DNA from: Planctomycetota bacterium
GTDB lineage: Bacteria > Planctomycetota > Phycisphaerae > UBA1845 > UTPLA1
Reading direction: 5' to 3'
Length of the DNA stretch: 64,000 nt
Assembly (NCBI GenBank): GCA_016235815.1
Contig: JACRIM010000023.1
Span: 101,221 to 165,220, forward strand
This document shows, one piece after another, positions 14,477-61,370 of the stretch (the stretch's first letter is position 1; the number at the start of each line of letters is the position of its first letter). Position numbers and translations under genes: made by a program. The notes beneath the pieces were generated by a model that made no database searches, had not been told where the DNA came from, and saw nothing but the letters and a program-made list of their open reading frames with translations.

Positions 14477-15223
14477 TCACGTCTCCACCGTCAGCGTATT
14501 ACTCGCCGCGCTTTCACCACCCACGTTCACCGCCGTGACGTAATACTGCACCGTCGTGTCGAAGGCCTGCGACGCAAAGAGTTTACTGGTCGGCGTCTTC
14601 ACGCCCGTCTCAAAGAGTTTGAACGACGAGTCGCCCGGCGCCTTGCGATAGAGGCGGTAGAAATCGGCGACGCCGGTCGTGGCCGATGGAACCGGCGGCG
14701 TCCACACCAGTTTCATCATGTTTGACACTCCCGACGCCGTCTCGGCGAGATTCGTCGGCGCGGCCGGCGCGGCGAGGGCGAAGATCGGCCAGGCCCGGTA
14801 GTGCACCTCGTAGATGGCGGCGCGATCGTCGGCATCGCGAAAGGTGATGTTGAGGTTGATCAGCTCGATGCCCGTGACGATCGCGTAGTTATCCAGGCGC
14901 GTTTTGACCGTGTCGATGAGCGTGAACGCACCATGCGCGGAGGAATCTCCGAGCCGCGGGTTCGATGTCTGTCGCAGCGCGCGGGCGACGACCAAGATGG
15001 TGAACCGCGCGCCCAGCCGGTCGGGCCACGTCTCCGGCGCGGTCGGCTCTTCAACAAATGCGACGAAGGCCGACGGCGTCCGCTCGCGAAGCATCGCATC
15101 GCGCAGCGCCGCGCGGTAGTCGCCCGACACGCCCTTGACGACGGCGAATGCGGGCGAGCCGCTGATGGTCGCGCCGGCGAGGCGCGTGATGATGGCGGAT
15201 TCGAGATCACCGAGGCGGGACAT
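14477..15223 (-). CDS. Mu-like gp37 (DUF1834) protein fused to a C-terminal fibronectin type III domain
   Basis: 248 residues from ATG 15223 (AAGGAA upstream). Residues ~1-150 (MSRLGDLESAIITRL ... YEVHYRAWPI) match the DUF1834/gp37 family of Mu-like phages, a small protein encoded just after the head genes. Residues ~160-248 (PTNLAETASGVSNMMKLVW ... YYVTAVNVGGESAASN) form an FN3 domain, often used on virions to bind carbohydrate or cells. It is the last gene of the head cassette; no tail sheath, tube or tape-measure gene follows. Confidence 0.72.
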   Translation of the reverse strand: MSRLGDLESAIITRLAGATISGSPAFAVVKGVSGDYRAALRDAMLRERTPSAFVAFVEEPTAPETWPDRLGARFTILVVARALRQTSNPRLGDSSAHGAFTLIDTVKTRLDNYAIVTGIELINLNITFRDADDRAAIYEVHYRAWPIFALAAPAAPTNLAETASGVSNMMKLVWTPPVPSATTGVADFYRLYRKAPGDSSFKLFETGVKTPTSKLFASQAFDTTVQYYVTAVNVGGESAASNTLTVET

Positions 15224-15291
15224 GGGGATTCCTTGAAAAGTCAAAACGTCGAAAAATCGAAAAGTCGAAATGGAGCGGCCGAGGGGGTTTT

Positions 15292-15360
15292 AGAGCCGCG
15301 ACCGCGAGGAAGCGGGTGTTCTCGATTCGGAGAACCCGCTTCCTCACGGGCGCGGCTCTG
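15292..15360. repeat. Large imperfect hairpin between the gp36- and gp37-like genes
   Basis: The left arm (15292-15321) is nearly the reverse complement of the right arm (15331-15360, AGAACCCGCTTCCTCACGGG then CGCGGCTC). The right arm recurs at 16005-16032 in the next intergenic gap. It could fold as an RNA hairpin in the cassette transcript. Confidence 0.7.
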
Positions 15361-15364
15361 ACTG

Positions 15365-15808
15365 TCACAAATCCTCCAACTCATCGCGGGTCATGCTGCG
15401 CGGATTCGTCCGAACATCCGCAATCACGCCAAGCGACGTCGGCTCGGCCCGCGCAATCGTCGCGGGCAACTGCACCTGCCCTGCCGCCACGCGGGCCAGC
15501 CACTCGACGGCCTCGCTTCGACGGCGCACCACGTCCGTCGGCACCGGCGGCCGCCTGCTGTGCAAGCGATACGACACCAGATCGAGCACGAAGGTGCGCA
15601 ACACATTCTGCAATTCGCTTTCGCCGGACAAATCGACCGGCACGCGATACCGCGCGGCGAGATAACTGTTCACCTCGCCCTCGGCGCCGAGCAGGGCCTG
15701 ATTCACCTTGTTCACGTCGGCCGAGCCGCTGCCTGCGTCATCGGTGAGCTGCACATAGGTCGGAGTGCCGAGGAAGAGTTCGATGTCGGTGTTCGTGATA
15801 TATGCCAT
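15365..15808 (-). CDS. Mu-like gp36 (DUF1320) head-completion protein
   Basis: 147 residues, the usual length. The start MAYITNTDIELFLG and the helical pattern ALLGAEGEVNSYLAARYRVPV are typical of DUF1320/gp36 of Mu-like phages, which sits at the head-tail connector. Its intact frame and place next to the capsid gene support the assignment. Confidence 0.78.
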   Translation of the reverse strand: MAYITNTDIELFLGTPTYVQLTDDAGSGSADVNKVNQALLGAEGEVNSYLAARYRVPVDLSGESELQNVLRTFVLDLVSYRLHSRRPPVPTDVVRRRSEAVEWLARVAAGQVQLPATIARAEPTSLGVIADVRTNPRSMTRDELEDL

Positions 15809-15827
15809 GAGACGCTCCGATGTAAGA

Positions 15828-16032
15828 CATGGTCCGCACAGCGGACCCTACGTAATTCAACGAATTTCGAATGACGAATTACCAATTACAAAAGTGCTGC
15901 TCCTCACGCGGGAGCCTTTGGTAATTCGTCATTGGACATTGGTAATTCAGCAGCGCGGCCGAGCTTTCGCCCGACCGCGCCGCGCTTCCTTACTCTCCGG
16001 CCAAAGAACCCGCTTCCTGACGGGCGCGGCTC
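15828..16032. repeat. Intergenic repeats inside the phage cassette
   Basis: Contains one copy of the dispersed GGTCCGCACAGCGGACC palindrome (15828-15851), an AT-rich stretch with an inverted pair (GACGAATTACCAATTA / TTGGTAATTCGTC), and a copy of the AGAACCCGCTTCCTGACGGG unit (16005-16032). These are chromosomal-type repeats, not phage genes. Confidence 0.65.
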
Positions 16033-16039
16033 GGATTGT

Positions 16040-16954
16040 TTACGTGAAGTCCGTCAACACGGCATATTGCCAGTAGCCATAGGCCATGCGATACCGGGCG
16101 CGGACGCCGTAGAGAAACTTCTCGCGGCGGAAGCCCTCGTCCGATTCATCCGTCAGCGCGTTGAACTCCACCGGCTCGCGATCCTGAAAGATGAACGGCC
16201 GCACCACGCCATCCGTCTTCAGCAGGTACCACTTGCTCTTGTCGGTGAGCCACGGCATCGAGATGACGCGAGCGATGCCCTTGAGGACATTCGTGCTGTC
16301 GCCGAGCACCGTCGCGTTGATCGCCTGCGACGCCGTGAAGAGCATCGTCGGCGGCACCACGCAGACCAGCCCGCTCGCCGAGACCAGCATCGGCTCGCCC
16401 TGATCGTCCTTGAAGGTCAGCATCTGGGCGATGGCGACCTTCAGCGCCTCCTGAAATTCGGCGACGGTCGGGGCGTTCTCATTCGACGCATCAAAGGTGA
16501 GCGCGTTGTTCTGATTGCCCGACGCCCCGGAGACGTGCGCCGCGTTGAAGAAGCTGACGCCGTCATAGGCGTTGTTGCCCGCCGTCTCCCCGGCGATGAG
16601 CAGTTGCGAGACGAGATAATCCTTGTGCGTCGCGGCGCGTTGGGCCAATTCGGCCACGCGCAGACGAATCTGCCCGGTCTGGTCGTCGCTGATCTCGTCG
16701 CGGTCGACTTCGATTGTCGCCTCGTACTTGAGATTCCGCAGCGAATAGCTCTCGGTGCGCAGACCCGCGGCAAGACGGCCCGTGCCCCATTCGCGGATGC
16801 GCGGCACGGTGCCGAGCCAACGATAGGTCTCGCGGTCGGTCGTCGAGATGACACGCGTGCTGAGTTCGCCGAAGTGCGTCGGCGTGGCGTCGAAACGATT
16901 GAAGAACTCGCTTCGCAGGCCCTTGGTGAGTAACCCGGTATTGATGACGGCCAT
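16040..16954 (-). CDS. Mu-like major head protein (gpT)
   Basis: 304 residues, normal for the Mu gpT family. Typical features are the N-terminal LLTKGLRSEFFNRF, the WLGTVPRIREWG motif, LRNLKYEATIEVDRDEISDD and the C-terminal FLYGVRARYRMAYGYWQ. It should form the icosahedral capsid shell. It lies between the decoration-like gene and gp36, as in Mu-like gene order. Confidence 0.9.
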   Translation of the reverse strand: MAVINTGLLTKGLRSEFFNRFDATPTHFGELSTRVISTTDRETYRWLGTVPRIREWGTGRLAAGLRTESYSLRNLKYEATIEVDRDEISDDQTGQIRLRVAELAQRAATHKDYLVSQLLIAGETAGNNAYDGVSFFNAAHVSGASGNQNNALTFDASNENAPTVAEFQEALKVAIAQMLTFKDDQGEPMLVSASGLVCVVPPTMLFTASQAINATVLGDSTNVLKGIARVISMPWLTDKSKWYLLKTDGVVRPFIFQDREPVEFNALTDESDEGFRREKFLYGVRARYRMAYGYWQYAVLTDFT

Positions 16955-17006
16955 GAGAAATCCTCCTTTGGAGTGTGTCGTTTCCAGTTCGTGGTCTTAA
17001 GACGAG

Positions 17007-17765
17007 TTACGGCAGTTCGAAGAAACGGATGGTGAGCAGCCCGCCGACGCCGGCGCTGGACGAGGCCGAGCCGACCTTGGCCCAGATGCGCAGGTTCTTG
17101 GCGACATCGCGCCCGAAGAGCGAGAGATTCGCCGGGACGTGCGCCGACAACGTCGCGAGATTGAAGGCGCTGACGATTTGCGTCGGATTCGTGTTGTCGG
17201 TGCCGACATCGAGGTTGCCGGAGTTCGGGACGGTGTTAAAGCTGACCTGGGCGCTGACCACTTTGATCGCCCGCTGCGTGATCATCACCGGGTTGGTCGT
17301 CGCGGAACCGACGGCACTGGCCAACGGCACGGCCACGACTTGCTCGTTCTGCGGCATCGCCAGCGGCAGGATGCGCACGATCCCCTGATTGCTGCCAATG
17401 TGGGCGATCAGGATTCCGCAGTAGCTGCCGCCGAGTTGATTCGATGCACTGGTGGTTTCGTTGTCAGCGGCATAGACCGGCGCGCCGGCCCAGGCCTGCG
17501 TGGCCCCGGCGACGGGCAGGACGAAATCGCCCTGCGTATAGAGGCGGACGAACTGCTCGCCGCCCGCGCCACCGGCGGTGTTGTCGATCTCCTCGTAGGC
17601 AATGCCCGCAAAGAGATCGCCGGCAACGAGGTTGCGGGCGAAGCCGCTGGTGCGCTCGATGCCGACGAGCGCGCCTTTGTAGATGCGCGCCGACGCGGCA
17701 ACGGGAAACGTTCGCAGTTCCTGATCGACGTAGCGGGACAGTTCACGATTGGCGGTGATGGCCAT
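17007..17765 (-). CDS. Putative capsid decoration/cement protein
   Basis: 252 residues, family not firmly recognised. The N-terminal ~120 residues (FPVAASARIYKGALVGIE ... LYTQGDFVLPVAG) resemble DUF2190-like capsid-stabilising proteins, and position between protease and capsid genes is where Mu-like phages encode a small head protein. The second half (VMITQRAIKVVSAQVSFN onward) is beta-rich and ends with TIRFFELP; it may be an added outer domain. Function assigned mostly from context. Confidence 0.6.
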   Translation of the reverse strand: MAITANRELSRYVDQELRTFPVAASARIYKGALVGIERTSGFARNLVAGDLFAGIAYEEIDNTAGGAGGEQFVRLYTQGDFVLPVAGATQAWAGAPVYAADNETTSASNQLGGSYCGILIAHIGSNQGIVRILPLAMPQNEQVVAVPLASAVGSATTNPVMITQRAIKVVSAQVSFNTVPNSGNLDVGTDNTNPTQIVSAFNLATLSAHVPANLSLFGRDVAKNLRIWAKVGSASSSAGVGGLLTIRFFELP

Positions 17766-17893
17766 GATGGATGCTCCTTTCAGTTTTTAGTTCAAGAGAG
17801 AATGAATTTCGTCTCATGTCATTGCGTTTATTCAACATGCCACCGGGGTCTCCGGGGCGACTCTTCGACTCGCGCTTCCGTGCTCGGATTACG

Positions 17894-18841
17894 TTATGAC
17901 GCCGCGTCGCGCACGGCGGCGTGAACAAATGCCTCTTCCGTGCAGATTCGCTCGAGGATGGATTTGTTTGCCCGCCACTCGGAGCGGGCCGATTGCTCAA
18001 CGGCGCGGCGACGGGCATCTCCGGACGGCGCGGTCGCGGGACCGGTGAGTCGCCCCAGCGGCACGATCAACGGCGCGGAGGCCTCCCAGCGGTCGAACTC
18101 GGCCGGGTCGCGCTCGGCAAGAGTCAGCGCCCATTCGCGCTGAGCGGCCGTCAGCTTGCCGGCGAACATGGCCCTCTCGACGCGCGCCGATGCATCACGA
18201 AGCGATTCACTGCGCTGCAACGAGCGGATGCGCTGCGCCGCGGCGACAAGCACAAAGTCCTCCGTCGCCGATTCATCCAGCGAAAGCAGCCGGCGCAACT
18301 CCACCGATGGGTCTTCGTTCGTCGGCGTAACTCGGTTGATGACCGGCTTCATCCCGACGATGGCGGGCTTGTTGGTCAGCGCGATCGAGTGCAGCGCGAC
18401 GACGCGGCGATCCTCGCGGCGAATCAACGCGACCGGCGACAAGTAGCGATAGTGCCGCGCGGCGAGCTTCTCGGCAGCCTCGGCCGTCCACTCCACCTCG
18501 GCCCAGAGACCCGGCGTGGTGTTGGCCTGCGCCGCCTCTTCAGGCGAAACGATGACAAGTTTTTTCACCCAGCCCGCCGCCGGTGCGAGGCCGGTGGGCG
18601 AGCTGTATGCGCCGCCGAGGGTTTGGTGTTCGTAGTCGATGGGCAGATCGGTGCCGTGCTCGCGAAAAGCGGCGATGGTCGCGGCGGCCGATTGCTCGTC
18701 AACGACGAACGAGCCGGCCGTGCTTTTCACATCGCCCCAGGGGACGACGAGGATTCGCCCGGGCACCAGCGGATCGGACAGCGCGGCCGATTCCATGACG
18801 ACTTGTTCGAGGTCGGTGTCGAACGTGGATTCGATGGACAT
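17894..18841 (-). CDS. Mu-like prohead protease/scaffold (gpI-like)
   Basis: 315 residues. Motifs LPIDYEHQTLGG, APAAGWVKKL and YRYLSPVALI followed by LHSIALTNKPAIVGM are the conserved core of the Mu I-type protease, with the catalytic region in the first ~160 residues. The C-terminal half is helical and charged and likely acts as the internal scaffold that is removed on maturation. Gene order (portal, protease, capsid) agrees. Confidence 0.85.
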   Translation of the reverse strand: MSIESTFDTDLEQVVMESAALSDPLVPGRILVVPWGDVKSTAGSFVVDEQSAAATIAAFREHGTDLPIDYEHQTLGGAYSSPTGLAPAAGWVKKLVIVSPEEAAQANTTPGLWAEVEWTAEAAEKLAARHYRYLSPVALIRREDRRVVALHSIALTNKPAIVGMKPVINRVTPTNEDPSVELRRLLSLDESATEDFVLVAAAQRIRSLQRSESLRDASARVERAMFAGKLTAAQREWALTLAERDPAEFDRWEASAPLIVPLGRLTGPATAPSGDARRRAVEQSARSEWRANKSILERICTEEAFVHAAVRDAAS

Positions 18842-18935
18842 GAGAGTCTCCTTTCAAATTGGACGATTGCCTTGAGTCTCGTGATCGATGAAGTTCAAAT
18901 TACCAATTCCCAATTACAAAATCCGTGCGGGCGAG

Positions 18936-20243
18936 TTACGGTTTTCCTCCACCGGCGTCGGTTCTGCCCGCAAGCGTTGGTTCGCGCTCATTCGCCTCTG
19001 GGATGCCGAGCGATGCGTGCGCCCAGCGGCTCGGCACGCGCGCGCCGAGTTGGTTCACGGCCACATCGAGAACGCGGGCGAGCTTCTCGGTGTCCTCGCG
19101 CGGATCGAGAATCCGCTGAAAGTGCGGCACCGGCGCATCGGGCCCGAAGCGCAGTCGCACCAGCGGTGTGAGCAGATCGCGGCGAAGTGTCTGCGCCTCC
19201 TTGCGCAGATCGTCGTCGCGGATGTCCATGCGGACGTGATCGTGGACCTTGGCCGCGCCCGCGCTGGCCAGCATTCGCGCTGTGTCGGTGGTCAGCGTCT
19301 GGCCGAGCCAGGCCTTGCTGATCTCGCGGTCGAAGTAGAGGCACAGGTTCTCATACAGATTCACTTCGCCCGGCGTGCGCGACTGAATGATCTCGAGCTC
19401 GACAGCCTTTGAGAAAATTCCCGTCGCATCGGCCCCCAGGTTCTTGAGCATGTCCAGCAGTTCGCGCTTCTCCTCGGGCGAAGCGGTCGGGCCATAGCGG
19501 GCGATGCGCACCGGCATCCCGAAGATCTCCGCGAAGATCAGCCAGTCCTTCAGGGCGAAGTGTTTGCCCAGATAGGCAAGGGCCGTCGCGCGCAGCAGCC
19601 CGCCGCGGGCCGGGTGCTGGTTCCGCGCGTGCGGCGTGTGCACGATGAATTTGTCGGGCGGAAGCGGAATGCCGTCGAACTTCGATTCGTCGGTCAGGAT
19701 GCGAATCTCACCGAGTTCGCCGAGCGCGATGCGGGCAAAGTCGACGGGCACGAGTTCGGCAAGAGCGACGCCACCTGCATCGCCGCGCCAGACAAGCTCC
19801 ACCAATGCAAGATTTCGCCCCACCGCCAGCGACAAGTGCGCGAGCGATTCCTCCACGCCCGGCGTGCGCCGCAGCACATCATCGCAATAGCCGGCCACAT
19901 CGTCGGCAAGCCTGCGGTCCGCGCTTCGGCCGGCGCGCCAGCCGGGCAGTTCGGCCGCCGAGACGATCTGCCAGCGCAGACCGGTCACGGCGAGTCGCCG
20001 GGTGTTGGCGACACTGAAAAGATGCGCGTCCTTTTCTTCCATCTGCTCGAACAGCGCGAGCTGAGCGCCGAGATCACCCGCGTCGGCCTGTTTGAAGAGC
20101 GACACAAGCCGCGACGGCGTGAGTCCGTCGGCCGGGTAATCACGAAAGGTGTCTTCCTTTCGACGGTGCGTGATGAGGCCCGGGCGCGGCATTCGTGCAG
20201 GAGCGCGACGTACGGCAAGGGCGAGTCGTTCGATGAGTTTCAT
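18936..20243 (-). CDS. Mu-like portal protein (gp29-like, DUF935)
   Basis: 435 residues from ATG 20243 (GGAG upstream). The open frame continues to 20639 but that part overlaps the terminase gene and reads as an antisense artefact. Motifs typical of DUF935 portals: DGLTPSRLVSLFKQADAGD, MEEKDAHLFSV, VTGLRWQI, KFIVHTPHARN and KDWLIFAEIFGMP. It would form the dodecameric DNA channel of the prohead. 31 bp separate it from the terminase gene. Confidence 0.85.
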   Translation of the reverse strand: MKLIERLALAVRRAPARMPRPGLITHRRKEDTFRDYPADGLTPSRLVSLFKQADAGDLGAQLALFEQMEEKDAHLFSVANTRRLAVTGLRWQIVSAAELPGWRAGRSADRRLADDVAGYCDDVLRRTPGVEESLAHLSLAVGRNLALVELVWRGDAGGVALAELVPVDFARIALGELGEIRILTDESKFDGIPLPPDKFIVHTPHARNQHPARGGLLRATALAYLGKHFALKDWLIFAEIFGMPVRIARYGPTASPEEKRELLDMLKNLGADATGIFSKAVELEIIQSRTPGEVNLYENLCLYFDREISKAWLGQTLTTDTARMLASAGAAKVHDHVRMDIRDDDLRKEAQTLRRDLLTPLVRLRFGPDAPVPHFQRILDPREDTEKLARVLDVAVNQLGARVPSRWAHASLGIPEANEREPTLAGRTDAGGGKP

Positions 20244-20274
20244 CTTCGGTCTCCGTGATTCGTTGATTGACACG

Positions 20275-21570
20275 TCACCAGGCTCCTTCGCGGGCAAAGG
20301 CCGACGGCTCGACGGTCGTGAACTCGATGGGGCCGGTGTCGCATTCCGCGGCGTGCAGGCCGAGCGCCGCCGCCCAGAATCGGTCGGCGTGCCCGTCGCC
20401 CGCGCGATCGGCGTCGTAGCGAATGTGGCCGGTCGCCGTGGTGATGCGGCTGACCGAGTGCCAGTCGCGTGCGATGGCATCGTCGACCGGAATGCGAAGG
20501 AGCCCGCGCTCGGCGCAGACGCGGAGTCGGCCGGCGAGCTGCGCCTTGAGCGCGGGTGTGAAGGAAAGCCCTTCGACGCGATGCTCGCCGAAGCGAGTGG
20601 TAAGAGTCTCCGCAAGTTGCATCCCCAGCCCGCTTGCATCGATGCAGCAGCGGCGGACGCAGGCGCGGCCGAGCAGTCCGTTGAGTATCTCTTCCTGTTG
20701 CGCGAACGGTGCGTTGTCGAATGTCAGCACACCGCGCGTGGTGAAGGTGTCACCCGTCTTCTCCCAAATCCAGATGGCCGTGAGATCACGGCGGCGGCCG
20801 ATATCGACGCCGAGAAAAATGTCAGCGCGTTTGCGATTGAGGGCGCGGTCGTCCTGCAACGTGCCGAGGTTCACATCGTGGCAGCGGCGGATGATCTCAT
20901 AGGGCATGAAACTGGTGGATTCATCCACGAACTCGCAGCAGAACTCCTGTCGCCATGCAACGTCGCCATCGATGCCCTTGCGGAGCGATTCGCGGTCGAC
21001 CTCCAGCCCCTGGCCAATCGCTTCGTCGAGCGTGAGCGTGCTCGTCGTGAACGCCGGATTCTCGGCGAGGCGGTGAAACATGTTCTTGCAGCCGCGCGGC
21101 GTCGATGCGATGTCGAGCTGTCCGTCGCCGCGAAGAAGCGTGGGAAAAAGCGACGCCCAGATGCCCTCGTCGTCGGCGTGCATGGCGAATTCATCGAGAA
21201 AGACATCGCCGGTATAACCGCGGGCCGTCAGCGGATTCGCGGGCAAACCGATGACGCGCACGCCGTTGGGAAGCGCGATTTCAAGTTGGCGAAGCGACGT
21301 GTCCTTGAAGAAGGAGGATTGAATCGTGTCGGTGTACACCCGCAGTGCATGGCAATGCTGTCGAACTTTTCGCATGGCCTCGCGGCTTTGGCGCTGGCCC
21401 GCGGAGAGGATGATCTGATTACGATGATGCGTGAGCGCCCGAACAAGGCGGCGCAGCGTGAAGGTAAAACTCTTGCCCGTCTGCCGCGCCCAACAATTCC
21501 ACGTGAACCGCGCCCGGCGCAGCACGGCATCGCGCTGATAGGCCAACAGATTGATGCACGAACCATCCAT
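20275..21570 (-). CDS. Mu-like terminase large subunit (gp28-like)
   Basis: 431 residues; AGGGAG upstream of ATG 21570. The ATPase has a Walker-A-like ARQTGKS (about residues 28-34) and a Walker-B VFLDEF; the RNase-H-like nuclease begins GVDIGRRRDLTAIW and has a second acidic site in IDASGLG. It would pump DNA into the prohead. No small-terminase gene precedes it; the next gene upstream is divergent and unrelated, so the cassette starts here. Confidence 0.87.
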   Translation of the reverse strand: MDGSCINLLAYQRDAVLRRARFTWNCWARQTGKSFTFTLRRLVRALTHHRNQIILSAGQRQSREAMRKVRQHCHALRVYTDTIQSSFFKDTSLRQLEIALPNGVRVIGLPANPLTARGYTGDVFLDEFAMHADDEGIWASLFPTLLRGDGQLDIASTPRGCKNMFHRLAENPAFTTSTLTLDEAIGQGLEVDRESLRKGIDGDVAWRQEFCCEFVDESTSFMPYEIIRRCHDVNLGTLQDDRALNRKRADIFLGVDIGRRRDLTAIWIWEKTGDTFTTRGVLTFDNAPFAQQEEILNGLLGRACVRRCCIDASGLGMQLAETLTTRFGEHRVEGLSFTPALKAQLAGRLRVCAERGLLRIPVDDAIARDWHSVSRITTATGHIRYDADRAGDGHADRFWAAALGLHAAECDTGPIEFTTVEPSAFAREGAW

Positions 21571-21718: not shown

Positions 21719-22855
21719 ATGGCTATTCAATCGATCATCAGCGTTACACTGTTTTTCGCGTCGGCGGCAACGGCGCAGTCGCCCACCGTCTTCCTCGCCC
21801 GCCCCGGGCAGGTCGTGGCGCTGGTCGATTCCAACGCCGATGGCGACTTTCTCGACTTTGCCGAAACACGCACCTACGCCGCCGCCTTGCCCGCGGGGAT
21901 CGGCGCGATCGCTGCACGTCCGAACCGGCTGTTGGTCGTCGACGGCTCGACGGGCGGCCTGCGTTCGCTGGTCGATCTCAACGGCGACGGCGATGCACTC
22001 GATTTCGCCGAGGTATCGCAATACGGCATTGCCCCGGCCGCGCCGCCGGGACTCGTCGCCATTGCGTGCCAATCCGATGACACTTGCTATTGCGTGGACA
22101 CCGCGTCGGGCAATCTGATCCGCTTCGTCGATCTCAATCACGATGGCGACACCCTCGATTTCGCCGAGGCAACGGCCGTCGCGAGCGGGCTAGGGGCAAC
22201 GGTCGCGCTGTCGGTGCGGCCCGACGGCGTCATCCTCGCGGCGCTGTCGCTCACCACGACCCCGGTGATGATCCTGCAGGATCGAAATGCGGACGGCGAC
22301 TTCTTCGATTTCGCCGAGTCGATCAGCTATGTGGAAAACGCAGCCGCCGGCGCAAGCCTCGCAGCGGTCACCGACACACTCGCATTTCTCGCCCGGCTCG
22401 CAGACCAGCGCGTGCTCGCCCTCCGCGACCTGACCGGCGACGACGACGCACTCGACTTCGGCGAAGTGACAACGTGGGCCGAGGGGATCGCCGGCGCAAG
22501 TCGCGTGGCGGTCGAATCCGATGGCGGCGTGCTCGTCGCATGCACCGATGCCGGCGGAAGTGTTTGGCGTTTGCGCGATCGTAATAACGACGGCGACGCG
22601 CTGGACTTCGGCGAAGCGCTGATCGTCGCAACGGGCTTCACGTCGCCAAGTGGAATCGCCGTGCAACCGACAACGACGACTTGCATTGCGGGCGACATGA
22701 ACAACGACGGCGCGGTGGACCATGCAGACGCACCACTGCTCGCCGCGGAACTTCTCGCCCCGGGCAATTCGCCGTTGTGCCGAAGCGACGTCAACGGCGA
22801 CGGCGGGCTGGACGGTCGGGACATTCGGGCCTACCTGCTCGCGGGATTTCCTTGA
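21719..22855 (+). CDS. Secreted protein with six DxNxDGDxxDFxE calcium-loop repeats and a dockerin-like end
   Basis: 378 residues with a signal peptide (IISVTLFFASAATAQ). Six repeats of ~45-50 residues each carry an EF-hand-like loop: VDSNADGDFLDFAE, VDLNGDGDALDFAE, VDLNHDGDTLDFAE, QDRNADGDFFDFAE, RDLTGDDDALDFGE and RDRNNDGDALDFGE. Six repeats suggest a six-bladed beta-propeller with a calcium site in each blade. The C-terminus (CIAGDMNNDGAVDHADAPLL ... DVNGDGGLDGRDI) is dockerin-type. A surface or extracellular structural or binding role is likely. Divergent from the phage terminase. Confidence 0.8.
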   Translation: MAIQSIISVTLFFASAATAQSPTVFLARPGQVVALVDSNADGDFLDFAETRTYAAALPAGIGAIAARPNRLLVVDGSTGGLRSLVDLNGDGDALDFAEVSQYGIAPAAPPGLVAIACQSDDTCYCVDTASGNLIRFVDLNHDGDTLDFAEATAVASGLGATVALSVRPDGVILAALSLTTTPVMILQDRNADGDFFDFAESISYVENAAAGASLAAVTDTLAFLARLADQRVLALRDLTGDDDALDFGEVTTWAEGIAGASRVAVESDGGVLVACTDAGGSVWRLRDRNNDGDALDFGEALIVATGFTSPSGIAVQPTTTTCIAGDMNNDGAVDHADAPLLAAELLAPGNSPLCRSDVNGDGGLDGRDIRAYLLAGFP

Positions 22856-25806: not shown

Positions 25807-27219
25807 CTAGGAAGCCGCGCCGCTCGGTCCGACTTCGATGTTCAATTTGTCCGGCGTCAGACCGTATCGATCGATGCGATATTTGAGCTGGTCGCGGGAA
25901 ATGCCGAGCATCTTGGCGGCGCGCGTCTGGTTGTAGTGCGTGGCGACAAGCGCCTGACGGATCAGGTCTTCCTCGAGTTCGGCCAATGTCATCCCGCCGG
26001 GCGGGAGCTTGACGAGCGAAGAGGTGGGCGCCGTGTCCGTCTGGTTCGACTGGCCGACGACCAAATCCTGCGCGGTAATGTCCGGCCCTTTGGAGAGCAA
26101 AACGGCCCGCTCAATCGTGTTTCGCAGCTCGCGCACGTTTCCCGGCCAGTTGTAGCGCATGAGCTTATCAATCGCGTCGGGCGTGAGGCTTTGAATCGGC
26201 TTGCGAAACTCGCGGGCATAAACATCGGTGAAATACTCCGCGATCAAGCGCACGTCATTGCCGCGCTCGCGCAGGGGCGGCAGATCGATGCCAATGACAT
26301 TGAGTCTGAAATACAAATCCTCCCGAAATCGTCCCTCGCTGATAAGCTTGTTCACGTCGCGATTCGTCGCGGCGATGACGCGCACATCGACCTCAATATC
26401 CTTCACACCGCCGACCCGTCGGAAGCTTTTTTCCTCGAGAAAGCGGAGCAGCTTCGCCTGCAGCGTCGGCGGCATGTCGCCGACCTCATCAAGAAAGACA
26501 GTGCCGCCATCAGCCAGTTCGAGCAAGCCTTTCTTTTGCTGCCGCGCATCCGTAAAAGCGCCGCGCTCATGGCCGAAAAGCTCGCTCTCCAGCAGCGTCT
26601 CCGTAATGGCCGTGCAGGTAATGTTCATGAACGGCCGCGCCGCGCGATCGGAGTTGTAATGCACCGCGCGGGCCACCAGATCCTTGCCGGTGCCGCTCTC
26701 GCCGCGAAGAAAAACCGTGGATGTCCCGCTCGCGGCCACGTCGTGGATGAGCGCGAAGAGCCGCGTCATCGATTCGCACTGGCCGAGAATGCGTGAGAAG
26801 CCGAACTTGTCCTTCATCTGCGCGCGGAAGTCGCGAACTTCGCGGCGCAGCGCCGTTGTTTGCAGCGCCTTCACGACCGTCAGCATCAGCTCATCCATCT
26901 TGAACGGCTTGCTCACATAGTCATAAGCGCCAAGCCGCATCGCCTCGACGGCATTCTCCACGCTCGAAAAGGCCGTCATCATCACCACGACGATGTCGCC
27001 ATCGTGCTCGCGAATCTGACGCAGCACGTCGAGTCCGGTCATATCGGGCAGTTTGTAATCCAGCATGACGAGGTCGAAGATCTGATTGCCGACCATCGAC
27101 AAGCCGCTCGCACCGTCCTCGGCTTCCTCGACGCCCAGGCCCTCCTCCTGGAATCGTTGTCGAAGGGACCAGCGGATGAGCTTCTCATCTTCGATAATCA
27201 AGATGCGTGCTTTGCTCAT
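25807..27219 (-). CDS. NtrC-family sigma54-dependent response regulator
   Basis: 470 residues. Receiver domain 1-120 with phospho-acceptor Asp54 (LVMLDYKLP) and Lys104 (SKPF). AAA+ domain ~142-375 with Walker A GESGTGKD (173-180), the sigma54-contact GAFTDA loop (220-225), Walker B GGTVFLDEVGD and the R-finger region. C-terminal Fis-type HTH (NQTRAAKMLGISRDQLKYRI). Its ATG overlaps the kinase stop (ATGA), so the two are translationally coupled. It should activate sigma54 promoters in response to the globin kinase; rpoN is also in this window (53044-54591). Confidence 0.93.
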   Translation of the reverse strand: MSKARILIIEDEKLIRWSLRQRFQEEGLGVEEAEDGASGLSMVGNQIFDLVMLDYKLPDMTGLDVLRQIREHDGDIVVVMMTAFSSVENAVEAMRLGAYDYVSKPFKMDELMLTVVKALQTTALRREVRDFRAQMKDKFGFSRILGQCESMTRLFALIHDVAASGTSTVFLRGESGTGKDLVARAVHYNSDRAARPFMNITCTAITETLLESELFGHERGAFTDARQQKKGLLELADGGTVFLDEVGDMPPTLQAKLLRFLEEKSFRRVGGVKDIEVDVRVIAATNRDVNKLISEGRFREDLYFRLNVIGIDLPPLRERGNDVRLIAEYFTDVYAREFRKPIQSLTPDAIDKLMRYNWPGNVRELRNTIERAVLLSKGPDITAQDLVVGQSNQTDTAPTSSLVKLPPGGMTLAELEEDLIRQALVATHYNQTRAAKMLGISRDQLKYRIDRYGLTPDKLNIEVGPSGAAS

Positions 27220-28400
27220 GCCGCACCGCCCAATTCCACGGTGACGCGCGTGCCCTTCCCGACCTGGCTTTCAATGCGCAGGTCACCGCCGTGCGAGTCA
27301 ACGATTCGTTTGCAGATGGAAAGGCCCAGGCCGGTGCCCCGCGCCTTGGTCGTGTAAAACGGCTCCAACACCTTGGCTAATTGATGCGGGCTGATCCCGC
27401 AGCCCGTGTCTTCGACGACGATTCGCGTGGCGCCGCTGTCGCGTGTGACGCGGCAAAAAATCTCGCCGCCATCCTCGCAGGCGTGCGCGGCATTCAGGAA
27501 CAGATTCGTCAAGACCTGTTGCAACTGCGCTTCATCGACGTGCACGGCGTGACCCCGCCCGGCGCCATCGTAATGCACCTTTACCGATTGCAGCGACGGC
27601 TCTTCGCGAAGCACCATCAGACAGTGCTCGATGATGCGCCCGACGTCATGAACCGCACGTTCCGGCGGCTTCGGCCGCGCATAAATCAGCAGGTCCTTCA
27701 CCGCGGCATCGAGTCGGTCGATCTGGCGAAGCGCCTCCGCGATGATCTCTTTATGTGGGTTGTTCTTGTCCATTCCCGCGCCAAGGACCTGAATCGCGCC
27801 GCTGATGCCCGCGAGCGGATTCTTGATCTCATGGGCCAATGATGCCGCGAGTTGCCCGATCGTCGCAAGGTGTTCGGACTCGCTGATTCGCGCCTCGTAT
27901 TCAGCGCGCTCCAGCTCCTGCATGCGCTTGACCAGATCCTCGCGATAGGTCTGATTCATGATCGCGAGTTCCAGATCGAGCAGCTTGTTCAACGACGCAG
28001 ATCGCGCCGCAAGTTCATTTGGCGGACTCTGACAGGCAAGATTCTCGATCAACGCCAGACGAACGATCGTCATCGCCGTGAACATGTAATGCTGAGGAAG
28101 CTCAACCTGCACATGCACGCGCCCAATCCGAGAATGCCGCGCGAAATACTCCTCGTCATAGACGCCGCTGAACAACTCGGTCAGCCAAACCAGGAGGCTG
28201 GCCTTGAGGCGAGAAACGCTGGCCTCGCTGCCACCGAAAACAGCCCGGGCATTCGGGTGGTTGAGGATCGCGTCGTAGAACCGGTCAACAACGGAAGGGA
28301 GTGCGGCCGATAACGGCTGGAGAAGGCCCTTCAGAACCTGGGCATCGTGGCTGTCAAAACCGACGTAACGCTTCATGTCCTCGAACAGCTCGCTGGGCAT
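27216..28400 (-). CDS. Globin-coupled sensor histidine kinase
   Basis: 394 residues from ATG 28400. The open frame reaches 29132 but the extra part lacks protein-like sequence, and a TATACT box 6 nt upstream fits a leaderless start here. Residues 1-155 form a protoglobin domain, with a likely haem proximal His96 in RIGRVHVQVELP. After a short coiled coil comes HisKA with phospho-acceptor His190 (LAASLAHEIKNPLAGI), then a HATPase with N box NLFLNAAHAC, G1 VEDTGCGIS, F box FYTTK and G2 GTGLGLSI. No transmembrane helix, so a cytoplasmic O2 (or NO/CO) sensor that phosphorylates the NtrC-type regulator encoded next. Confidence 0.9.
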   Translation of the reverse strand: MPSELFEDMKRYVGFDSHDAQVLKGLLQPLSAALPSVVDRFYDAILNHPNARAVFGGSEASVSRLKASLLVWLTELFSGVYDEEYFARHSRIGRVHVQVELPQHYMFTAMTIVRLALIENLACQSPPNELAARSASLNKLLDLELAIMNQTYREDLVKRMQELERAEYEARISESEHLATIGQLAASLAHEIKNPLAGISGAIQVLGAGMDKNNPHKEIIAEALRQIDRLDAAVKDLLIYARPKPPERAVHDVGRIIEHCLMVLREEPSLQSVKVHYDGAGRGHAVHVDEAQLQQVLTNLFLNAAHACEDGGEIFCRVTRDSGATRIVVEDTGCGISPHQLAKVLEPFYTTKARGTGLGLSICKRIVDSHGGDLRIESQVGKGTRVTVELGGAA

Positions 28401-28406
28401 CCCGTC

Positions 28407-28412
28407 AGTATA
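28407..28412 (-). promoter_or_regulatory. -10 box 6 nt before the globin kinase ATG
   Basis: TATACT on the minus strand, spacer GACGGG, ATG at 28400. The -35 (CTCACC at 17 nt) is poor. Suggests a leaderless kinase-regulator mRNA. Confidence 0.4.
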
Positions 28413-28458
28413 GGGTCGCTGGACAGGGTGGTGAGAATCCGCAGGCGGAGGGCCTAAT

Positions 28459-28800
28459 TCAGCCGAGGCGGAGGCTCGTCGCCGCTGCGACAGGCTCGTT
28501 TCGGACCTGGGCGCAGTCTTTTCGCCACCGGCAATCGGGATTGCAGCCCGTCTGGAACTCCCCAAAACAGCTTCGGTAGCCTTCGTGAGCCTGCCATCGC
28601 CAGATGAGGTCGACATTGGGCATCCAGCCGGTTCGGACTCCGAGGCGGACGGCCTTTTCGCGGGTGATCCTCGGAATAACCGCGGGCGGGGCACAATCAT
28701 GGCGTTCCCCGATTGCAAGAAGGGTGCCATCAAATCGTGCAGATGGCTCAGATGACAGAACGCCAGTTGTAAGCGTGTGTTCCATGGTTTTTCTCGCCAT
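28459..28800 (-). CDS. Small conserved-looking Trp/Cys-rich protein upstream of the globin kinase
   Basis: 113 residues counted from ATG 28800; ATGs at 28827 and 28785 are alternatives and none has a strong Shine-Dalgarno. I do not recognise the family. The C-terminal half looks like a real folded motif: ITREKAVRLGVRTGWMP, VDLIWRWQAHEGYRSCF and TGCNPDCRWRKDC. The three cysteines of CNPDCRWRKDC plus the nearby SCF could bind metal or form disulfides. Codon third positions are strongly GC. It reads toward the kinase with 58 bp between them, so it may belong to the same redox/oxygen unit. Confidence 0.5.
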   Translation of the reverse strand: MARKTMEHTLTTGVLSSEPSARFDGTLLAIGERHDCAPPAVIPRITREKAVRLGVRTGWMPNVDLIWRWQAHEGYRSCFGEFQTGCNPDCRWRKDCAQVRNEPVAAATSLRLG

Positions 28801-29121
28801 CGCACCGTCAGCCGCGAAGAACGCCATGCTGGAAGTTCCGCAGTAACTGCGAAAATTCCCGCAATCACCGAGGCCGAATCCGTCTCCCCCACCGGATGCG
28901 GGCCGCCGGCTTCACCGTGCCATGGGGCGGTAAGAGTTGTATCGAACTGGTAATCGGACAACTTTGGCTGAAAATCAGGAATATTGCGTGGCTGGCGCGC
29001 CGCGTGATCGGCTAGACTTCCAAGGACGGCCATCGACCGGCCTGTCGACCGGCCCCGGCCCGCCCGAGTCCCTTCGTTCCGTGGCGTAGTCCCCTTCGCC
29101 GCCACGGTGGAGGCCGCCGTC
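28801..29121. other. Intergenic region between the kinase side and the Cys-rich/hemerythrin side
   Basis: 321 bp between divergent units. I searched by eye for a sigma54 -24/-12 element (TGGC-N8-TTGC) upstream of 29122; the nearest is TGGCTGGCGCGCCGC (about 28988-29002), which keeps GG-N10-GC but little else. No confident promoter. Confidence 0.4.
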
Positions 29122-29472
29122 ATGTCGCCCAATCTCGACCGAATCCGCGCCCGACTTCGAAATGCAATCTGCCCGACCTGCGTGCGTTACACCGCCGCGC
29201 ACACGTGCAGCCTCGTGCCGCCGCGCACCTGCTCGGTGTTCAAAAACCTGGACACCATCGTGGGAATTGTCGTGCGGACGCACTCGCGATCCGTCGAGCC
29301 TTACGCCCAGGCGGTGCGCGAACGCGTCTGCAGCGCCTGCCCGTGTGAAGACAATCACGGGTGTTGCCCGATGCGCGACGGCATCGACTGCGCCCTCGAC
29401 ACCTATCTGCCAATCGTCGTGAACGAAATCGAAGCGGAGTTGGACGCCATTCGGCGGGATTCCGCGAACTGA
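29122..29472 (+). CDS. Ten-cysteine small protein, partner of the hemerythrin-like gene
   Basis: 116 residues from ATG 29122 with GGAGG at good spacing. Ten Cys: 17 and 20 (ICPTC), 29, 37, then 70, 73, 75 (VCSACPC), 81 and 82 (GCCP) and 90. No signal peptide, so the cluster is more likely a zinc or Fe-S site than disulfides. C-terminal third is an amphipathic helix. Family not recognised. It precedes the hemerythrin-like gene by 37 bp on the same strand and is opposite the globin kinase, so a role in oxygen, NO or iron chemistry is inferred from context. Confidence 0.68.
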   Translation: MSPNLDRIRARLRNAICPTCVRYTAAHTCSLVPPRTCSVFKNLDTIVGIVVRTHSRSVEPYAQAVRERVCSACPCEDNHGCCPMRDGIDCALDTYLPIVVNEIEAELDAIRRDSAN

Positions 29473-37599: not shown

Positions 37600-37803
37600 T
37601 CGGGCCGATGTGTTGTGGCACCGGTCAAAGATCCGCCTAGGTGGATTTCCAACCGGTGAGCCAAGTGTGGCACCGGTTTCCAACCGGTGAGTCTTTGTGG
37701 CACCGGTTTCCAACCGGTGAGTGGTAACACAGGTCGAAGATCCGCATGGGTGGCTTTCCAACCTGTGAGTCTCTGTGGCACAGGTTTCCAACCTGTGTGC
37801 ATG
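37600..37803. repeat. Array of CCGGTTTCCAACCGG palindromes
   Basis: At least five partial or full units. Full units are GGCACCGGTTTCCAACCGGT and, at the end, GGCACAGGTTTCCAACCTGT, in which both arms change together. Related units occur at 61237-61370. No gene in 37448-37943. Confidence 0.8.
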
Positions 37804-53043: not shown

Positions 53044-54591
53044 TCAGTGAACCTTCCGCTCCCGATTCGACGGAATCCCCAACTGCGCCCGATACTTCGC
53101 CACCGTCCGCCGCGCCACCGGCGTCCCGCTCGCCTCCGACAGCTTCTGCGTGATCTCATCATCCGTCAGCGGCCGGCGCTTGTCCTCCGCCTCGATGATC
53201 TCTTTCACCTTGTGCTTGATGCTGTTCCAACTCTGCCCATCCCCGCCGTCGGTCTCCCGCGGGCCGCTGGTGAAGAACATGCGCAGCGGATAGATCCCGC
53301 GCGGCGTCTGCAGATACTTCCCGTCCACCGTTCGGCTGATCGTCGAGGGGTCGCAATTGAACTCATCCGCCAGATCGCGCATCCGCAGTGCATTCATAAA
53401 CTGCGGGCCGAAGTCGAAAAACTCTCGCTGCCGTTCCAGAATCACCTTGGCAATTTCCAGCAGCCGCTGCCGCCGATAGGCGATCGCATCAATGATCACA
53501 CCGGCCGACTCGATCCGCTTCTTGATGTACTCGCGCGTCTCCTTGTCGGCGTCCTTGTCACTGAGCATCTCGCGATACTGCGCTGAAATCCGCAGCCGCT
53601 GTGTGTTGCCCCGCGCCAGCTTCACCGTATAGCCGTCGCCCTGGTCGGCATACTCCACAATGATGTCCGGCGAAACCTTCGGCACATCATTCGACCGGTA
53701 CAACAAGCCGGGATGGTGATTCAGCTTGCCGATCACCTTAAGCGCCGCCCGTATGTCCTCGATGGAGCGCCCCGTCGCCTTCGCCACTGCCGGGAAATTG
53801 TTCTTCGCCAGCGTCACCAGATGATGCCGGACGAGTTCCTCGCAGAGCGAGTCCTCCACCTCGATCGCCTGAAGCTGGATCAACAGGCACTCCGTCAGAT
53901 CCCGCGCCCCGACGCCGGCCGGCTCCAATGTCTGGAGCAGCTCCAGCGCCTTCTCCAGCACCGCCGCATCGATCGGCGGATGCTGCGACCACGCAATCTC
54001 TTCCATCAGGTGCGCCATCTGCTCCGGCGTGCGCGTCATGATCAACGGCGTCGCCTCGTCCGACTCGCCATTCTCGCTCGACGGACGATGCTCCGACTCC
54101 ATCCGCAGATAGCCGTCGTCGTCCATCCAGTCGATCAGCACTTCGCCCGCCGCGCGCGTCGCGTCGTCCGTCTCAATCAATCCCCACTGCCGCATCAGCG
54201 AATCACGCAGGCTCTCGCCGCGCGATTCCGTATTGGCCATCGCGTCAATCTTGACGTCGCGCTCGCCCTCCCCGCGCGCCGCGCGACCATACGGCAAATC
54301 GCCGTGGTCATAGTCCATCTCGCGCGACATCCGCTCCAGCCGCTCAAAACTCTCGGCCTCCGCGCGGTTCGCCTCGGTGTTCAGCGGCTCGTCCTTCTGC
54401 TCCTGCGGCTCGCGATCGATCTCGATCTCGGCCTCTTCGAGAACAGGGTTCTGCTCCAGCTCCTCGCGAACCCGAGCCTCCAACGCCAAAAGGGGGAGCT
54501 GCAAAATCTCCATGGATTGAATAAGCTGCGGGGTCAGCCGCTGCTCAAGTCGCATCTGCTGCGACGGAATCATGGAGAGTGAATGTGCCAT
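53044..54591 (-). CDS. rpoN: RNA polymerase sigma54 factor
   Basis: 515 residues from ATG 54591; the frame is open further but region I must start at the N-terminus. Region I: MRLEQRLTPQLIQSMEILQL. An acidic region II follows (~60-190), then the core-binding and HTH regions (ALRMRDLADEFNCDPSTISR), and the RpoN box near the end (ARRTVAKYRAQLGIPS). It directs transcription from -24/-12 promoters and needs activators such as the NtrC-type regulator at 25807-27219. Not in an obvious operon. Confidence 0.95.
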   Translation of the reverse strand: MAHSLSMIPSQQMRLEQRLTPQLIQSMEILQLPLLALEARVREELEQNPVLEEAEIEIDREPQEQKDEPLNTEANRAEAESFERLERMSREMDYDHGDLPYGRAARGEGERDVKIDAMANTESRGESLRDSLMRQWGLIETDDATRAAGEVLIDWMDDDGYLRMESEHRPSSENGESDEATPLIMTRTPEQMAHLMEEIAWSQHPPIDAAVLEKALELLQTLEPAGVGARDLTECLLIQLQAIEVEDSLCEELVRHHLVTLAKNNFPAVAKATGRSIEDIRAALKVIGKLNHHPGLLYRSNDVPKVSPDIIVEYADQGDGYTVKLARGNTQRLRISAQYREMLSDKDADKETREYIKKRIESAGVIIDAIAYRRQRLLEIAKVILERQREFFDFGPQFMNALRMRDLADEFNCDPSTISRTVDGKYLQTPRGIYPLRMFFTSGPRETDGGDGQSWNSIKHKVKEIIEAEDKRRPLTDDEITQKLSEASGTPVARRTVAKYRAQLGIPSNRERKVH

Positions 54592-54759
54592 TCTCTGACC
54601 TGCTAACTGGTTGGCTCTGCGGCAGTTAGAAACTCTCGCCGCCCTAGAATCTTCGGAGACGCTGCCACGCGCCTCCAGCACAATTATATGATCGGCCCGG
54701 AAAAATGCCCGCACAATCGGTCGCTGGGCACGGAAGTTGCTAGGGCAAGTCCGATACAG

Positions 54760-61236: not shown

Positions 61237-61370
61237 CGCCACATGGCACCGGCTTTCAACCTGCCACATGGCACAGGTTTTCAACCCGCCATGTGGCACC
61301 GGTTTTCAACCCGCCATGTGGCACCGGTTTTCAACCGGTGTACTGTGCGACAGGTTTTCAACCTGTCGAC
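61237..61370. repeat. Second array of CCGGTTTTCAACCGG-type palindromes
   Basis: Five units with TTTTCAA centres. Intact palindromes are CACCGGTTTTCAACCGGTG and GACAGGTTTTCAACCTGTC; others have only one arm preserved. Same family as 37600-37803. No gene in 61129-61462. Confidence 0.8.

Follow-up and report, generated by a model that had tools for sequence, protein, structure and literature searches.

The stretch of DNA considered here, termed the window, comprises 64,000 nucleotides from a Planctomycetota bacterium of the class Phycisphaerae, order UBA1845 (assembly GCA_016235815.1, contig JACRIM010000023.1, positions 101,221 to 165,220), whose genome, designated G000, is 4.58 Mb in size and 95% complete. 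The window carries a cassette of seven genes for the head and DNA packaging of a Mu-type phage, all of them open, on the minus strand and in the order of phage Mu, which together span positions 14477-21570. A preliminary description of the window had recognized seven intact head genes in Mu order, and matches in Pfam and PHROGs support their identities:

20275-21570, minus strand: TerL, the large terminase, which is predicted to supply the ATPase and nuclease activities of the packaging motor (Terminase_6N/6C, about 1e-14, Pfam)
18936-20243, minus strand: Mu-type portal protein, DUF935 (Portal_Mu, 1e-85, Pfam; solved phage portal 8rka, 2e-52)
17894-18841, minus strand: head maturation protease/scaffold, the Mu I protein (Mu-like_Pro, 8e-51; phrog_328)
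17007-17765, minus strand: head cement or decoration protein (phrog_1731, virion structural protein, 4e-20; Phage_cement_2 just under the Pfam cut-off)
16040-16954, minus strand: major capsid protein gpT (Mu-like_gpT, 1e-56; solved gpT capsid 8rkc, 9e-32)
15365-15808, minus strand: head-tail adaptor gp36 (Phage_Mu_Gp36, 5e-23)
14477-15244, minus strand: gp37, a terminator half whose C-terminus is FN3-like where the fused gene of relatives has the Dit (distal-tail protein) half (Phage_Mu_Gp37, 1e-6)

The portal gene is taken to start at the ATG of MKLIERL at 20243; the mechanically derived open reading frame extends to 20639. The earlier name "gp37-FN3" holds for its first part, the C-terminal FN3 being weak (fn3, E 0.02, under its cut-off). 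No sigma-70-type promoter site was found for the cassette, and terminator-like sites are rarer than in shuffled sequences. Sigma-54-type sites number 69 against 75 expected by chance, none of them in the gap immediately upstream of terL.

Flanking genes with a match are ordinary, as had been proposed; they encode a dehydrogenase, a DASS symporter, a squalene-cyclase-like protein, a DUF642 protein and a dockerin protein, and no integrase, transposase or repressor is present among the flanking proteins scanned. The preliminary description had also noted the lack of small terminase, gp30, tail and recombinase genes, and none was found beside the cassette. Its proposal that tail and lysis genes be sought elsewhere was followed for the tail: G000 has one match each for TerL, portal and capsid, and none for the tape measure (PF10145), the sheath (PF04984), the tail hub or a tail tube of the type carried by L137, a tailed prophage of the same order (other tail families, and lysis genes, were not searched).

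Selection, distribution and inheritance across the order

The cassette is under purifying selection among relatives of the window's genome. Ratios of nonsynonymous to synonymous substitution (dN/dS), calculated by NG86 because YN00 gave no value for many pairs, have a median of 0.146 and a maximum of 0.344 in 64 gene comparisons from ten same-genus pairs; 80 comparisons were possible, of which 13 dropped out because one genome had no copy of the gene and 3 because of N in the sequence. These values are far from the ratio near 1 that the preliminary description had named as the sign of relaxed selection. In G107 or G108, about 25 stop codons would be expected if the genes were unconstrained, and none is present. 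TerL was aligned in 44 sequences, including a prophage copy from G081; what we take to be the Walker B motif and the three nuclease aspartates are identical in 44 of 44, and the presumed Walker A residues in 43 of 43, the truncated G095 sequence being gapped there. The suggestion that the genes are selected for making and filling a capsid is thus borne out both by substitution ratios (at or below 0.344 in 64 of 64) and by invariance of the motor residues. A complete Mu-like prophage at this position, named in the preliminary description as a refutation, occurs in none of the 12 loci fetched from the window's own family (f1). The tailed relatives that were looked at (L134-L137, L147) lie at other places and have diverged from the cassette.

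The window's proteins were used as queries against 114 genomes of the order, 65 of them rated good. Matches were obtained for the portal in 95 of the 114, the capsid in 90 and TerL in 78, and most genomes that have a portal have one copy. Family f3 shows little or no match to the window's TerL; another terminase (phrog_38, 3e-92) is found in 18 of 19 f3 genomes searched, and is absent from G020 and from the control, G000. With either terminase counted, TerL, portal and capsid are all matched in 59 of the 65 good genomes, a count of matches of any kind for which 58 is safer, as the G081 portal and TerL belong to the tailed prophage L147. The remaining six comprise G055, G057 and G098 (TerL and portal), G094 (capsid and TerL), G030 (TerL) and G003 (none). 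In a sample of the phylum, 4 of 391 genomes from outside the order have the portal, at 27-34% identity; in a class sample, the capsid occurs in 8 of roughly 233 non-order genomes (the 233 obtained by subtraction). Two of these eight, G128 and G137, belong to one other family; their capsids are 55-57% identical, and they may represent a second lineage with the cassette. Among named contigs bearing the portal, 18 of 21 are from Phycisphaerae or other Planctomycetota, and the other 3, at 34-39% identity, come from bacteria in different phyla. A public protein collection also contains a portal (P0001) that is 94% identical.

The seven genes stand together in the window, and elsewhere they are often dispersed. 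The single contig of G067 has its capsid set at 0.42 Mb and its TerL and portal some 2 Mb away, at 2.44 Mb; on the single contig of G035, TerL-portal is at 0.05 Mb and gp36, gp37 and the hub at 3.80 Mb. TerL and portal are 72 kb apart in G010, and portal and capsid 21 kb apart in G043. Capsid genes adjoin the portal in none of seven portal loci of family f7, and in f3 the terminase adjoins the portal in one of 11 portal loci fetched (G021); the 11 f3 TerL places fetched contain no portal, no capsid and no neighbouring gene family that recurs in three or more. Such scatter is hardly possible for a phage and is possible for an endogenised system.

The set is inherited mostly with the host. With a single host gene, RpoN, as the reference (encoded in the same window at 53044-54714), and with G081 and loci marked as extra copies left out, protein distances of the portal correlate with those of RpoN at a Mantel r of 0.744 (51 genomes), those of TerL at 0.760 (40 genomes) and those of the capsid at 0.599 (51 genomes), each with p 0.0002; the agreement persists when shuffling is confined to families. 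In the portal tree, families f1, f3 and f7 each form one clade with 100% bootstrap, and f8 needs one extra change because the G081 copy groups with other phage-type copies next to f3. A QueD gene lies downstream in 8 of 12 f1 loci.

gp37, the hub and the tailed relatives

In 19 relatives of the order, the gene annotated as gp37 is an in-frame fusion of a tail terminator and the Dit protein. In tailed relatives these are separate genes placed around the tail tube and tape measure, so their fusion suggests that the tail was cut out between them. None of the six viral loci matching the fusion profile has the fused form. The gp37 of the window is reduced further, covering positions 1-168 of the 278-column fusion profile and consisting of the terminator half and the FN3-like end. 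Identity of the first half as a terminator rests on HMMER (E 4e-5 and 6e-4 to phage terminators), Pfam and fold; the corresponding hhalign probabilities, 28% and 25%, are weak. The hub of those relatives that have one is named partly from gene order, its structural model having a pLDDT of 73, a pTM of 0.53 and low TM-scores to hubs, and Pfam and PHROG scans of accessory-protein representatives yielded no informative match. In the f3 loci L122-L131, L143, L242 and L243, an acetyltransferase-like gene mostly lies between portal and protease, and small genes of the protein families f14, f10, f9 and f20 follow gp36. Transmembrane-like segments are seen in 9 of 9 f20 proteins and only 1 of 8 f14 proteins, and a lipobox in 7 of 10 f9 proteins; f20 (membrane-like) and f9 (lipoprotein-like) might, as a guess, be lysis genes.

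Tailed phages with related heads reside in the same order. The prophages L137 and L147 have gp30, a tube, a gene in the tape-measure position, and separate terminator and Dit genes. They and the viral contigs L316-L321 share with the cassette set homologous TerL, portal, protease, gp36, terminator, Dit, hub and f16/f15 proteins, not each detected in each contig; the cassette differs from the two prophages in having terminator and Dit fused, or Dit lost. Mu-head prophage-like loci with tape-measure-sized genes (L134, L135 and L136) occur, along with the cassette, in the f1 genomes G111, G102 and G103, and L134 begins with what reads as a LexA/CI-like repressor. Extra, scrambled copies are present in the f8 genomes G082 and G070 (L138, L202, L205), with the protease on the opposite strand, followed by cement, capsid and, in two of the three, portal; these may be degenerate or another rearranged set. 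The nearest viral capsid, on contig L323 beside tail-type genes, is 68% identical. Among 214 matching phage records the best-ranked has 37% capsid identity, and all 214 are below 60%.

Proposed particle and competing explanations

The reading that we favor, and consider rather probable, is that a phage-derived head-packaging set, selected and mostly inherited with the host across the order, builds tail-less capsids that are filled with host DNA and act as a gene transfer agent (GTA). The preliminary description had offered a GTA-like particle, a tail-less satellite or a capsid put to some other use; since the set spans the order, passes down with the host and is often spread over loci, a mobile satellite fits poorly and the GTA-like particle fits best, with other uses kept as an alternative. 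Chances appear about even for a more detailed history, in which a GTA native to the order arose independently of every GTA described so far; its ancestor would be a long-tailed phage with a Mu head, whose tube and tape measure were cut out and whose terminator was welded to Dit to leave a zero-length tail, after which lineages like that of the window became a tip-less, head-only DNA carrier with tail-free delivery.

The particles, their cargo and their delivery, which we infer, might be pictured as follows. gpT and the cement protein, processed by the I protease, would form a head on the portal, into which TerL, without a linked small terminase, would pump DNA to the point of a full head; the neck would then be closed by gp36 together with the terminator domain of gp37. 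Relatives would carry a zero-length tail directly on this neck, made up of the Dit half, the hub and the products of the genes that follow the hub (unassigned protein families f15-f19). In the window lineage the FN3-like end of gp37 may take the place of Dit, hub and following proteins; because no hub was found in G000 and the Dit half is gone, this end and the cement protein are candidate contacts with the recipient. We assume that lysis frees the particles and that recipients take them up.

Of the six features by which section 3 of PMC9662315 defines GTAs, three are found here. The proteins derive from a tailed phage, as judged from Pfam, PHROGs and PDB sequence matches. The system is fully endogenised and often in multiple loci, as one or another of TerL, portal and capsid is separated from the rest in G067, G010 and G043, at seven f7 loci and at 11 f3 TerL places, and it has no mobility genes in the flanks scanned. 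Inheritance is mostly vertical with co-diversification of host and set, as indicated by the Mantel correlations with RpoN and the portal family clades, less cleanly by the capsid. The definition further names an own genome that cannot be packaged whole, encapsidation of mostly random host DNA and delivery of DNA to other cells. The last two are predicted for the particle; for the first, the G067 loci, megabases apart, would probably not fit into one particle, depending on the size of the head. The cassette is classed as GTA-like rather than as a proven GTA. As in RcGTA (Rhodogtaviriformidae), described in PMC9662315, phage-derived structural genes are inherited vertically and often split, and a large terminase is kept. 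Unlike RcGTA, the cassette has a Mu-type head (gpT, DUF935 portal) and no identified small terminase, and tube and tape measure are gone where RcGTA particles are described as having a 49 nm tail (PMC9662315). No RcGTA chain is among the PDB sequence matches of capsid or portal, which returned Mu-type heads; a distant relation is possible. Accounts in PMC9662315 and PMC11841831 present BaGTA (Bartonella), BhGTA (Brachyspira), Dd1 (Desulfovibrio) and VTA (Methanococcus) as domesticated phages that package host DNA; these are of different hosts and are likened here by description. Zavarzinella formosa, also a planctomycete, is described in PMC7947584 as having a predicted intact prophage with a TerL near the RcGTA-like group and discussed in relation to GTAs; it is of the class Planctomycetia, and its prophage is set apart by description. 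Among the titles and abstract openings listed from the open PMC literature, none describes a planctomycete GTA or a domesticated Mu head.

The set likewise departs from intact phages and satellites. Module order and sequence resemble those of Mu-like phages with a gpT/DUF935 head (against solved gpT-type heads, 2e-52 for the portal and 9e-32 for the capsid). Mu-like prophages carry transposase, repressor, tail and lysis genes beside those for the head, whereas no transposase, repressor, gp30, tail or lysis gene is seen at the cassette locus: the flanking proteins scanned are cellular or unassigned, and tube, tape measure and sheath have no match in G000. Satellites of the PICI/P4 type are mobile elements with an integrase and a replication module; no such genes are among the flanking proteins scanned, and the set follows the host.

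Several observations weigh against the GTA-like reading. dS exceeds 1 in 23 of the 64 comparisons, making the ratios there rough, and dN/dS for G000 itself comes from distant pairs, as the genomes compared include no close relative. Three good genomes (G055, G057 and, from the window's own family, G098) have no capsid match and G003 has a match to none of the three proteins, so the set can be lost. Correlation of capsid with RpoN is not significant within f3 alone (p 0.07), and the capsid tree is less clean than that of the portal: f1 and f3 are clades, f7 needs two changes and f8 seven. The phage-type portals found in the f8 genomes G070, G081 and G082 branch beside f3, within the clade of the order; together with the untidy capsid tree, this makes exchange with phages, or a second domestication in f3, likely, and f3 may also be a replacement. 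No lysis gene, regulator or small terminase has been identified for the window's set, no genome-wide search for them having been made. The hub is without a match in 86 of 114 genomes, and a head without a hub has no obvious route of delivery. Finally, GTAs are described in PMC11841831 as capsid plus tail, while PMC9662315 mentions that some Bartonella particles were once reported as tail-less.

The same difficulty of delivery favors an alternative in which the head set was domesticated for another job, such as packaging of DNA that is never delivered, the sparing of kin, interference with phages that infect the cell, or transport of other cargo. Neither tube, tape measure, sheath nor hub was found in G000, and many relatives keep the head genes without a hub. 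This alternative is nevertheless rather unlikely: the presence of TerL and portal, and the invariance of the motor residues, speak for DNA being actively packaged, and the hub, where it is kept, is itself under selection (dN/dS 0.12-0.16 in four pairs of hub-keeping relatives), which fits attachment to something outside. If instead the set were one half of a satellite-helper pair, it would give heads to, or borrow tails from, an injection system or tailed prophages resident in the same cell. G070, G082, G102, G103 and G111 do also contain tailed relatives or genes of these, but of the 114 genomes of the order only 4 match an L137-type tube (each also with a phage-type portal copy), 7 have the tape measure PF10145 above its cut-off and 4 the sheath PF04984, with no match in G000 for any of these three, the tail families searched; as no integrase or repressor is seen by the set, and the set follows the host, such a partnership is quite improbable.

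A phage lineage specific to the order might also keep reinfecting its hosts and leave similar head remnants, which would account for the prophage copies that branch inside or beside the order's clade in the portal and capsid trees and for the viral capsid of L323. We give this little credence, given the single portal copy in most portal-bearing genomes, the agreement with RpoN within families, the recurrence of QueD downstream in f1, and a terminator-Dit fusion that is present in 19 genomes of the order and in none of the six viral loci matching its profile. The least credible proposal is a decaying prophage, intact by chance in G000 alone; it would explain the missing tail, lysis and control genes and the partial losses in G098, G055 and G057, but was rejected on order-wide retention and low dN/dS, with relatives also free of the stop codons expected from decay.

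If the GTA-like reading is correct, GTAs would gain a phylum, an independent origin and a new architecture beyond the few known, and a particle would be seen to lose its tail and yet stay under selection for packaging DNA. Carriage of the three genes in 59 of 65 good genomes can be read alongside that of RcGTA-like clusters, reported in 57.5% of 1,423 alphaproteobacterial genomes (PMC9662315, PMC11841831). The question of how a tail-less capsid moves DNA between cells becomes testable. Fused terminator-Dit and stand-alone TerL genes would serve as markers in searches for elements of this kind, since programs that call prophages would probably dismiss them as remnants.

Neighbouring genes and repeats in the window

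A gene for a dockerin-domain protein (21719-22855) adjoins terL in divergent orientation; G098, G112 and G105 likewise have members of this gene family upstream of terL. About 4 kb upstream of the cassette, at 25807-29132, a histidine kinase with a protoglobin domain is encoded beside a sigma-54 response regulator. Short repeat units like TGGCACCGGTTTCC occur at 37668-37789 and again at 61244-61332, the second site having a 25-base spacing.

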